From positions 1 to 64,000 of the forward strand of contig NZ_CP076135.1 of NCBI RefSeq assembly GCF_018736105.1: DNA of 64,000 bases, read 5' to 3'. Positions 1,770 to 4,568 of this stretch are shown here, piece by piece. The DNA comes from Bradyrhizobium sediminis. GTDB lineage: Bacteria > Pseudomonadota > Alphaproteobacteria > Rhizobiales > Xanthobacteraceae. A program made the position numbers and the translations under genes. The first letter of the stretch is position 1. Every line of letters starts with the position of its first letter. The notes beneath the pieces were generated by a model that was not told the DNA's origin, ran no database searches, and was given only the letters and a program-made list of their open reading frames with translations.

Positions 1770-2888
1770 ATGAAGGTTACCGTCGAGCGCGCGCAACTCC
1801 TGAAATCGCTGGGCCACGTCCATCGCGTGGTCGAGCGCCGCAACACCATTCCGATCCTGGGCAACGTGCTGGTCCGCGCCGAAAGCGGGCGGCTGTCGCT
1901 GAAGGCCACCGACCTCGACCTCGAAGTCACCGAGACGCTTCCGGCAGAAACCGCGACCGGCGGCTCCACCACGGTGCCGGCGCACATGTTCTACGACATC
2001 GTGCGCAAACTGCCCGACGGCGCCCAGATCGTGCTGGAAGGCGACGGCGACCGCTCGATGCTGGCGATCCGCGCCGGCCGCTCGCGCTTCACGCTGCAGA
2101 CCCTGCCCGAAAACGATTTTCCGGATCTCGCCGCCGGCGAGATGACGCATTCGTTCACGCTGGCCGCCGCCGACGTGAAGCGGCTGATCGACCGCACGCA
2201 GTTTGCGATCTCGACCGAGGAGACCCGCTACTATCTCAATGGCATCTATCTGCACACCGCCGGCAGCGCCAAGGCCGCGACCTTGCGCGCGGTCGCGACC
2301 GACGGGCATCGGCTGGCGCAGATCGATCTGCCGCTGCCCAAGGGGGCGGACGGCATGCCCGGGGTGATCATACCGCGCAAGACCGTGGGCGAAGTGCAGC
2401 GGCTGATCGAGGACAACGAGGCCGAGGTCGGGATCGAACTGTCGCCGGGCAAGATCCGCTTCACCATCGGCAATGTGGTGCTGACCTCGAAACTGATCGA
2501 CGGCACCTTTCCGGACTACGGCCGCGTCATTCCGCAGAACAACGACAAGGAGCTGATCGTCGACAAGAAGGATTTCGAAGCCGCGGTTGATCGCGTCTCG
2601 ACGATTTCGAGCGAGCGCGGCCGCGCGGTGAAACTGGCGCTGTCCGCGGGCAAGCTGGTGCTGTCGGTGACCAATCCGGATTCCGGAAGTGCGACCGAAG
2701 AGCTCGAGGTCGAATACGCCTCCGACGCGCTCGATATCGGTTTCAATTCGCGCTATCTGCTGGATATCGCCGCCCAGATCGAGGGCGAGGTCGCGGTGCT
2801 GAAACTGGCCGATCCCGGTTCGCCGACGCTGGTGCAGGACAAGGATTCCAAGGGCGCGCTCTACGTGCTGATGCCGATGCGGGTGTAG
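1770..2888 (+). CDS. dnaN: DNA polymerase III beta subunit (sliding clamp)
   Basis: DnaN forms the dimeric ring that tethers DNA polymerase III to the template. From the ATG at 1770 the product is 372 residues, the normal size, and begins MKVTVERAQLLKSLGHVHRV, a typical beta-clamp start; upstream in-frame sequence has no family character. It contains the three repeated clamp domains and ends with the usual LMPMRV C-terminal tail. Order after dnaA is canonical, but recF is separated from it by the repeat-flanked DUF559 gene. Confidence 0.98.
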   Translation: MKVTVERAQLLKSLGHVHRVVERRNTIPILGNVLVRAESGRLSLKATDLDLEVTETLPAETATGGSTTVPAHMFYDIVRKLPDGAQIVLEGDGDRSMLAIRAGRSRFTLQTLPENDFPDLAAGEMTHSFTLAAADVKRLIDRTQFAISTEETRYYLNGIYLHTAGSAKAATLRAVATDGHRLAQIDLPLPKGADGMPGVIIPRKTVGEVQRLIEDNEAEVGIELSPGKIRFTIGNVVLTSKLIDGTFPDYGRVIPQNNDKELIVDKKDFEAAVDRVSTISSERGRAVKLALSAGKLVLSVTNPDSGSATEELEVEYASDALDIGFNSRYLLDIAAQIEGEVAVLKLADPGSPTLVQDKDSKGALYVLMPMRV

Positions 2889-2914: not shown

Positions 2915-2977
2915 TCTTCCCTCTCCCCTTGTGGGAGAGGGTGGCGCCTCACGGAGTGAGGCGACGGGTGAGGGGTT
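2915..2977. repeat. 63-bp inverted repeat, left copy, two tandem hairpins
   Basis: Left arm of a 63-bp inverted repeat; the partner is at 3346-3408 and I count 62 of 63 matching positions (one G/A difference in a hairpin loop). Each copy holds two hairpins in tandem: CCCTCTCCC/GGGAGAGGG and GCCTCAC/GTGAGGC. Its inner edge (GAGGGG at 2970-2975) lies directly before the GTG at 2979 and could act as ribosome-binding site for the enclosed gene. Confidence 0.93.
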
Positions 2978-2978
2978 C

Positions 2979-3344
2979 GTGCCGCAGACACCACACCACC
3001 GACCGACCGCCAAGCGTATCCGCAATTTCGCAAGGAAGATGCGCCGCGAACCCACCGACGCGGAAGCGGCTATGTGGCGATTGCTCCGGGATCGCCGGTT
3101 TCAGTTCGTCAAATTTCGCCGGCAAGCCCCCTTTCAGAGCTTTATTCTCGACTTCGTGTGCTTCGAAAAGAGAATCGTCATCGAGATTGACGGCGGGCAG
3201 CACGCCGACTCCGAGCGTGACACGACGAGAGAAGCCGTCCTGATGACCGAAGGTTTCAGAATCGCGCGCTACTGGAATAACGACGTGCTGCAGCGACCGT
3301 CATCAGTATTGGAGGATATTCTCGCGAAGCTCGCCGAGCTGTAA
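2979..3344 (+). CDS. DUF559 (Vsr/PD-(D/E)XK-like) endonuclease domain protein, repeat-flanked
   Basis: A 121-residue DUF559 protein, a family related to very-short-patch-repair endonucleases and annotated as endonuclease-domain protein; its biological role is not established. The nuclease-like core is visible as FILDFVC (Asp about 58), then VIEIDGGQH (Glu 69, Asp 71, Gln 74, His 75), followed by the WNNDVL segment typical of the family. The GTG at 2979 is preferred; an in-frame GTG at 2931 would place coding sequence inside the left repeat. The frame fills positions 2979-3344 of a 368-base interval between two near-identical inverted repeats. A hand count over 3061-3300 gives 137 G+C of 240 (57%), lower than a sampled line of recF (41 of 60). 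It interrupts the usual dnaN-recF adjacency, which suggests insertion. Function in the cell is unknown. Confidence 0.85.
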   Translation: MPQTPHHRPTAKRIRNFARKMRREPTDAEAAMWRLLRDRRFQFVKFRRQAPFQSFILDFVCFEKRIVIEIDGGQHADSERDTTREAVLMTEGFRIARYWNNDVLQRPSSVLEDILAKLAEL

Positions 3345-3345
3345 G

Positions 3346-3408
3346 AACCCCTCACCCGTCGCCTCACTTCGTGAGGCGCCACCCTCTCCCACAAGGGGAG
3401 AGGGAAGA
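3346..3408. repeat. 63-bp inverted repeat, right copy
   Basis: Reverse complement of 2915-2977 with one mismatch. It starts one base after the TAA stop of the DUF559 gene and ends 20 bases before the recF ATG, so it probably occupies the original recF leader. Its two hairpins could end DUF559 transcripts, but there is no T-run. No target-site duplication is evident outside the two arms. Confidence 0.93.
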
Positions 3409-3428: not shown

Positions 3429-4568
3429 ATGACCGCCTCCCGCATCCGCCGCCTCAGCCTGACGCATTTCCGCAACTATCGCGCGGCGAGCCTTGAGACG
3501 CGCGGCGACATGGTGGTGCTGGTCGGTCCCAACGGCGCCGGCAAGACCAACTGCATCGAGGCGATCTCGTTTCTGTCACCCGGCCGCGGCCTGCGCCGCG
3601 CCACGCTCGACGATGTCGCCGATATCCAGGGCGACGGCTCCTGGGCGGTGTCTGCCGAGGTCGAGGGCGCGCTCGGGCTGGCGACGCTCGGCACCGGCAT
3701 CGACCCGCCCGGCAGCGAGGGTGCGGCCACCAGCCGGCGCTGCCGGATCGACCGCGAGCCGGTCGGCTCGGCCACCGCCTTCGGCGACCATCTGCGCATG
3801 GTGTGGCTGACGCCCTCGATGGACGGACTGTTTCTCGGGGCAGCTTCGGAACGGCGGCGGTTCTTCGACCGCCTCGTGCTGGCGATCGACTCCGAGCATT
3901 CGAGCCGGGTATCGGCGCTCGACCGTTCCTTGCGCTCGCGCAACCGGCTCTTGGAAGTGCGCAATTACGACGACCACTGGTGCGACGCGATCGAGCGCGA
4001 AACCGCGGAACTCGCCGTCGCGGTGGCGGCGATGCGCGGCCAGACCGTGACGCGGCTGGCGGCGATGCTGCGCGCCCGCGGCGAGGCCTCCGCGTTCCCG
4101 TCCGCGCAGATCATGCTCGACGGCTGGATGGAAAACGCGCTGGTCAGCGAGCCCGCGACCTCGGTGGAAGACCGCTACCGCGAGATCCTGCGCGCCAGCC
4201 GCGCCCGTGACGCCGCCGCCGGCCGCACCCTCGACGGACCGCACCTCACCGATCTGCAGGTGATCTACGCGCCGAAGAGCATGCCGGCGCGCGACGCCTC
4301 GACCGGCGAGCAGAAGGCGCTGCTGATCGGGCTGGTGCTGGCGCATGCCAGTCTGGTCGCCGAGATGACCGGCATCACGCCGCTGTTGCTGCTCGACGAG
4401 GTCGTGGCGCATCTCGATCCCGGCCGCCGCAAGTCGCTGTTCGACGAACTGGCGAAACTCGGCGCGCAGGTCTGGATGACCGGCGCCGACCCCGCGGCCT
4501 TCGCCGACATCGGTCCGTCCGGCGAGATTTTCGACGTCGATTCCGGCCGGATCGCGCGCCGGGCCTGA
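3429..4568 (+). CDS. recF: DNA replication/repair protein RecF
   Basis: RecF is the SMC-like ATPase that works with RecO and RecR to load RecA at gapped DNA. The 379-residue product has Walker A (GPNGAGKT, about 33-40), the ABC-type signature (STGEQKALL, from about 291) and Walker B (LLLLDEVVAHLD, about 318-329). The length fits the family. The ATG at 3429 follows the right repeat of the DUF559 unit by 20 bases and has only a weak Shine-Dalgarno sequence. It lies between dnaN and gyrB as in many bacteria. Confidence 0.97.
   Translation: MTASRIRRLSLTHFRNYRAASLETRGDMVVLVGPNGAGKTNCIEAISFLSPGRGLRRATLDDVADIQGDGSWAVSAEVEGALGLATLGTGIDPPGSEGAATSRRCRIDREPVGSATAFGDHLRMVWLTPSMDGLFLGAASERRRFFDRLVLAIDSEHSSRVSALDRSLRSRNRLLEVRNYDDHWCDAIERETAELAVAVAAMRGQTVTRLAAMLRARGEASAFPSAQIMLDGWMENALVSEPATSVEDRYREILRASRARDAAAGRTLDGPHLTDLQVIYAPKSMPARDASTGEQKALLIGLVLAHASLVAEMTGITPLLLLDEVVAHLDPGRRKSLFDELAKLGAQVWMTGADPAAFADIGPSGEIFDVDSGRIARRA

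Follow-up and report, generated by a model that had tools for sequence, protein, structure and literature searches.

We consider it fairly probable, though well short of certain, that the DUF559 gene between dnaN and recF of Bradyrhizobium sediminis codes for a resident nuclease that acts as the partner of a dispersed repeat family, as RAYT proteins do for REP elements. The gene is enclosed by two inverted arms, copies of which are scattered through the genome, and other DUF559 genes from many bacterial families are flanked in the same way. If so, the function-orphaned PIT/triplex repeats, which the arms resemble, gain a likely protein partner, with DUF559/YcjD as the candidate, and the uncharacterized DUF559 nuclease family gains a proposed role.

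The window, by which we mean the whole stretch of 64,000 nucleotides analysed, carries the gene at 2979..3344 on the forward strand (121 amino acids from a GTG at 2979). On its left lies an arm at 2915..2977 (forward strand), and on its right, at 3346..3408 (reverse strand), an arm that repeat comparison and folding identified as an inverted copy of the first. As the preliminary description had it, the arms are 63 bp long with a single mismatch between them, and the interval that separates them is 368 bases; a repeat search lengthened the pair to 2915-2985 and 3338-3408, at 94% complementarity. The two hairpins described for each arm were recovered with DNA folding parameters, with z-scores of -4.5 and -5.2, and 0 of 200 shuffles folded equally well. 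Folding and arm alignment placed hairpin 1 of the left arm at 2919..2941 (CCCTCTCCC, loop, GGGAGAGGG), followed by a second hairpin at 2945..2963 and a G-rich tail, GGGTGAGGGG, at 2966..2975, all on the forward strand. In the right arm, on the reverse strand, the complement of the tail is found at 3348-3357, the second hairpin at 3360-3378, and hairpin 1 at 3382-3404. The assignment of the gene to DUF559 was borne out by a match to PF04480 of 122.1 bits (curated Pfam cut-off 20.6), as was its lower G+C content, which at 57.9% (65.2% for the window) lies among the lowest 1.5% of 366-nt windows. Its place between the two neighbours was confirmed as well; these we take to be dnaN (1770..2888, start approximate) and recF (3429..4568), both on the forward strand, following the preliminary description. 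An Rfam search returned whalefall-1 alone, and this identity, at 18.8 bits against a gathering score of 37, was rejected.

The start codon of the gene is uncertain. The frame upstream of GTG 2979 is open across the left arm, back to a GTG at 2931..2933 (forward strand) in the loop of hairpin 1, and frame and ortholog alignment support this as an alternative start that gives a 137-aa reading. Among 41 ortholog rows, two of which are duplicates, 13 have no ATG, GTG, or TTG at the position of GTG 2979. In 12 of these 13, the hairpin 1 loop supplies an in-frame GTG at codon -16, and the remaining one (L073) has a start at codon -4. Since most orthologs lacking the 2979 start have the loop GTG, the left arm may be partly coding. 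GAGGGG, earlier proposed as the ribosome-binding site, is not secure in that role, because translation could begin at 2931 rather than 2979.

The arm appears to be a form of a repeat that is already known. Its parts follow the order of the PIT/TM intrastrand-triplex motif, with a C-strand, a G-strand, and a third strand (CCCTCTCCC, loop, GGGAGAGGG, loop 2, GGGTGAGGG), and the GGGTGAGGGG tail matches the motif's third strand as published (PMC4666352). The second loop is 1-6 nt long in the published search, whereas in the window arm it spans 2942-2965 and holds a variable hairpin, so that the second hairpin takes the position of loop 2. By this comparison, the arm would be a PIT/TM motif whose second loop has gained an additional hairpin. 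PIT/TM repeats (Hoyne 2000, as cited in PMC4666352) were reported from more than 260 genomes, with 23 copies in that of E. coli MG1655 (Holder 2015, PMC4666352). That paper describes them as intergenic in E. coli, with some inverted pairs, and as linked to genomic instability; it cites earlier work in which the motif was without promoter or terminator activity, found them unconnected with transposons, phages, or plasmids in E. coli, and assigns them no accepted function or protein partner. No word starting with “nuclease”, “DUF”, or “Vsr” is present in the text.

Used as a query against its own 5.45-Mb genome, the arm gave 48 matches at E <= 10. Among the 44 matches of at least 30 bits, 32 form 16 pairs, all of them head-to-head, with starts 71-166 bp apart, hairpins pointing outward, and G-rich tails inward; all 16 doublets are too short inside for a gene of the size found in the DUF559 unit. 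The hairpin pattern was detected in 96 of 98 genomes of the genus, and a reversed control pattern 0 times in each. Across 21 distinct aligned arms, hand-picked from orthologs, the pairs of hairpin 1 are invariant. Hairpin 2 varies with paired changes: 99.7% of all cells pair, and 16 cells are doubly changed, a number reached by 0 of 500 shuffles. Two of the five measures of hairpin 2 (doubly changed pairs, of which there are 2, and pair types) did not exceed the shuffles, and the double changes may represent one event. No Y1_Tnp domain (PF01797, RAYT-type) was detected at E <= 1e-3 in the genome, which contains two further PF04480 matches besides the window gene. One of these, at 4540075-4540317, is a partial match (profile 4-85) in a 108-aa frame that, by reading, has arms of another sequence type around it, a doublet on one side and a lone arm on the opposite side. 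The second match is part of a 402-aa frame (L033, 1392-1460), where no such arms were seen, and adjoins a CGTC-type palindrome.

The association of DUF559 genes with arms holds across many families. From a class sample of 142 genomes, bearing 139 family labels, and a phylum sample of 249, the best match of each top-ranked genome was fetched, and inverted flanks scoring at least 15 were found at 41 of 56 DUF559 loci, as opposed to 7 of 635 control windows drawn at random and 1 of 68 neighbouring ORFs. These counts were taken from the domain ends (an earlier version with badly estimated gene ends gave 20/53); arms were not detected at the other 15 of the 56 loci. A relative of the window protein is present in 97 of 98 genomes of the genus. 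When the flanks of the genus orthologs were scored with other boundaries (40 scored, two unscored), only L052 was low; earlier scoring had given low values at L052 (10.5; L065 is the identical place), L054 (7.0), L068 (12.5), L075 (10.0), and L093 (10.5). Genus paralogs at 42-54% identity, of which 26 were fetched and 25 scored, had inverted flanks of at least 15 in 24 cases, against 1 of 115 neighbouring ORFs. Among named loci of less than 60% identity, 18 of the 23 scored passed the flank test, including those of the planctomycete Paludisphaera, a Peribacteria MAG, a Bacteroidetes MAG, and Entotheonella; the loci of five MAGs (Neomegalonema, an unnamed alphaproteobacterium, TA06, Bacteroidales, and another Bacteroidetes) failed it. 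The usual plan at passing loci is a CCCTCTCCC-type hairpin on the outside and a GGGTGAGGG-type tail on the inside, toward the gene. At one locus (L139), the DUF559 gene has near-identical inverted arms of approximately 100 bp and of another sequence type, perhaps marking a recent unit.

Arm types also follow the protein. In Mantel tests restricted to loci with arms, protein identity correlated with arm similarity within the genus (r 0.78, p 0.0005, for 33/34 loci given) and weakly across families (r 0.21, p 0.001, 41 loci). Mean arm similarity in the genus was 0.74 for proteins of more than 60% identity, and four pairs of DUF559 genes sharing a genome had arm similarities of 0.25, 0.33, 0.53, and 0.61. 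DUF559 subfamilies tend to have their own arm types. At the level of genomes, two or more CCCTCTCCC hairpins were found in 25 of the 37 genomes of the class sample in which DUF559 had a strong match, compared with 2 of the remaining 105 (Fisher 1e-16), and, for genomes of at least 3 Mb, in 20 of 26 against 0 of 30; two exact CCCTCTCCC hairpins were absent in 12 of the 37. Within the genus, the hairpin count was moderately higher in genomes with the ortholog (median 47.5, n=40) than in those without (median 27, n=55; p 0.002), with three genomes containing fragments dropped and phylogeny not corrected for.

A related pattern exists in E. coli K-12, in which ycjD is a DUF559 gene whose product is 45% identical to the window protein over 107 aa. 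Repeat no. 9 of MG1655 in PMC4666352 (1351204-1351239) lies 167 bp past the 3′ end of ycjD; the canonical repeat is present on this side only, and the 5′ side has an unrelated hairpin. The gene and its flanks were covered to at least 80% in 3362 of 5426 E. coli genomes. In 59 evenly spaced chromosomes, compared without correction for phylogeny and with a query taken from a ycjD-positive strain, the median number of repeat matches was 13 (10-20) with ycjD (n=37) and 4 (2-10) without (n=22). Some ycjD-positive strains of an earlier 40-row sample had 8 places, and those of a 93.6%-identity type (H24, H75, H76) had only 8-10. Part of the contrast is explained by phylogroup, because strains of this type overlap the upper range of ycjD-negative ones. 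In two inspected ycjD-negative strains, a TetR gene and RND efflux genes adjoin fabI, and a 2026 paper (PMC12817139) places either eefRABCD or ycjD in this slot. A doublet is present in some strains and absent in others at two E. coli sites, and we claim no target duplication there, because the differences do not stop at the arm edges but overrun them. At fepB-entC (L348 and L349 compared with L344), the stretch that one allele has in addition extends about 40 bp past either arm, with TAA at its boundaries. In 98E11 (L347) and APEC37 (L350), an internal deletion between the GGGAGAGGG copies of the doublet leaves one simple hairpin. In literature searches that reach few subscription journals and little of bioRxiv, none of the papers listed for ycjD had a title about repeats, nor did any for DUF559.

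Among named organisms, Bradyrhizobium has the closest relatives of the window protein, and Afipia, Tardiphaga, and Pseudolabrys have further ones; a DUF559 match was found in 51 of 142 sampled genomes of the class. The gene is under purifying selection: dN/dS could be computed for 21 of 28 ortholog pairs and was 0.05-0.11. A model built from 8 aligned sequences predicts a PD-(D/E)XK-like fold (pLDDT 82, pTM 0.71), which resembles that of Vsr. Best structure matches to the model include 3hrl (NGO0050; E 4e-8), and the homing endonuclease I-Bth0305I (3r3p; E 2e-4) is the second-best solved fold; E. coli Vsr (1vsr) ranks 11th (E 0.02). PADLOC models gave weak matches only, of 13-18 bits and to short parts of long models, and a role as an anti-phage defence protein was rejected, as no whole model was matched.

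The predicted fold raises the alternative of a caretaker: a repair nickase akin to Vsr, resolving the hairpin or triplex structures that the repeats form at replication, with the repeats spreading by other means and the gene's own arms serving as regulatory or target sites. The PD-(D/E)XK fold is common to the window protein and the mismatch nickases Vsr and VsrA, and the instability linked to the triplex motif would suit such a role. A Caulobacter protein that, like the window protein, has a DUF559 domain was named VsrA and tied to an SOS response (PMC12907096). Against this, the window protein scores only 23.3 bits with the Vsr model TIGR00632, far below its cut-off of 97.85, and repair alone would leave both the two-sided arms and the arm types that follow the protein unexplained. 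We regard a pure caretaker as rather unlikely.

The preliminary description took the unit for a minimal mobile element, a view that the history of the locus does not support. Thirty orthologous loci of the genus were fetched, and 29 are beside dnaN and/or recF: both genes are present at 27, recF only at 2 (contig ends), and neither at 1 (L052). The same holds for 44 of 49 named loci of at least 60% identity, some of them from genomes also within the genus set, with both genes at 41, one at 3, and neither at 5, of which one (L297) sits at a contig edge. In Bradyrhizobium aeschynomenes (L065/L272), the ortholog is found at a different site, with its left arm reduced to a remnant. Of the 55 genomes of the genus that lack the ortholog, 30 were searched for the dnaN-recF gap (in L165, dnaN was not in range), and none of the 29 readable gaps without an intact ortholog is a clean empty site. 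They contain GIY-YIG frames, CGTC doublets, solo arm relics, other palindromes, and, in L164, a decayed DUF559 gene. The unit is inherited mostly vertically and seldom moves. Of the observations named earlier as counting against mobility, vertical descent and the lack of a clean junction were both found; an absence of the arms from DUF559 genes elsewhere was not, because other DUF559 genes also have such arms.

Doublets at the same intergenic place were compared in sister species, at sites hand-picked from pattern matches and synteny. Doublets of different families occupy the orthologous place at seven sites in two sister-species pairs (L246/L251, L255/L252, L258/L263, L260/L264, L235/L259, L257/L253, and L264 (2327)/L259), as if repeat families replace one another at shared sites, and the same doublet is kept at four or more (L232/L242, L234/L244, L250/L254, and L230/L248). 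The edges at these sites, in the dnaN-recF gaps, and at the two E. coli sites are replaced or ragged, with no clean insertion junction; neither clean empty sites nor target duplications were found at any of them. This lack of junction evidence for transposition is the weakest point of the partner model.

A second nuclease was found in the same slot. By reading, 12 of the 29 gaps (L161, L162, L166-L168, L170, L177-L179, L181, L185, and L187) hold an intact or decayed GIY-YIG frame flanked by inverted CGTC-type palindromes, and Pfam confirmed PF01541 in both frames tested. In a class sample, 29 GIY-YIG loci were scored, and 16 of them had inverted flanks of at least 15, compared with 3 of 373 windows; 9 of the 16 passing flanks have, by reading, a GTCAT-type head. 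A literature search for GIY-YIG with REP, covering few subscription journals and little of bioRxiv, returned one Moraxella carriage paper only.

Such alternation of nucleases could also arise from a homing-type element, in which the nuclease cuts sites free of the unit, repair copies the unit or doublet in, and rival nuclease families then swap. The rank of I-Bth0305I among the solved folds, the GIY-YIG frames in the dnaN-recF slot, and the orthologous sites occupied by doublets of different families all agree with this. Neither the gaps nor the sister-species sites yielded a conserved target or a clean homing site, and homing in cis would be insufficient alone, because the doublets are too short for a nuclease gene; we consider it unlikely as an explanation of the unit. 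Bacterial genes often have hairpins near their ends, and the arm copies give an uncounted impression of being intergenic, yet it is very improbable that the arms are ordinary terminators or mRNA stabilizers that stand at both ends of a small gene by chance, given their rarity at gene-aligned control ORFs, the co-occurrence of DUF559 and hairpins across genomes, and the reported absence of terminator or promoter activity from the motif.

For the partner nuclease that we favour, anatomy and the RAYT comparison suggest a mechanism. The DUF559 protein would recognize the arm once the strand folds into its hairpin or triplex form, with single-stranded DNA at replication as the probable setting, and would nick at or near the folded arm. 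Head-to-head doublets could then be units copied or maintained in trans by the nuclease, and the gene's own two arms would preserve the match between protein and repeat type and may have a part in expression of the gene as well. More tentatively, we propose as a plausible reading that each superfamily of bacterial palindromic repeats is maintained and dispersed by a small resident nuclease of its own, that such partnerships originated at least three times from unrelated chemistries, and that the families compete for intergenic slots: GTAG REPs with HUH RAYTs (known), PIT/triplex repeats with DUF559 (YcjD), and CGTC REPs with single-domain GIY-YIG proteins. Depending on the Bradyrhizobium genome, the dnaN-recF slot is taken by a DUF559 unit, by a GIY-YIG unit, or by doublets without a gene. 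If true, the upkeep of dispersed repeats by resident nucleases would be a general arrangement, reached with unrelated enzymes. The candidate partners, DUF559/YcjD for PIT and GIY-YIG for CGTC repeats, make both repeat classes testable in laboratory strains, and annotation could mark nuclease and repeats as a single system.

The comparison with RAYTs and REPs, already drawn in the preliminary description, is well supported by the inverted flanks, the genome-wide doublets, the matching of protein and arm, and a gene that is kept in place. As described in PMC2817692 and PMC3116915, RAYT genes likewise lie between two inverted palindromic repeats, their repeats spread as inverted doublets (REPINs), as those of the window arm do, and protein and repeats coevolve, a feature that the Mantel tests bear out here, though weakly across families. 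RAYTs are also single-copy, apparently not self-mobile (PMC3116915), and rarely transferred laterally at the species level, which we list as a shared feature. CGTC-tagged REPs offer a parallel case with another nuclease: like the window arm family, they are abundant palindromes, mainly head-to-head dimers and mostly from Alphaproteobacteria, reported to be unassociated with transposase genes (Di Nocera 2013, PMC3733652), and here such palindromes flank single-domain GIY-YIG genes. The differences from RAYTs are as clear. A RAYT is a Y1 HUH transposase (PF01797), whereas the window protein is a PD-(D/E)XK protein of DUF559 (PF04480), and REPs have a GT(A/G)G head (PMC2817692), which the window arms, 63-bp double hairpins with a G-rich tail, have at neither end. 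By analogy, the DUF559 protein would fill a RAYT-like role as a resident nuclease serving dispersed repeats with unrelated chemistry, rather than acting as a hopping element.
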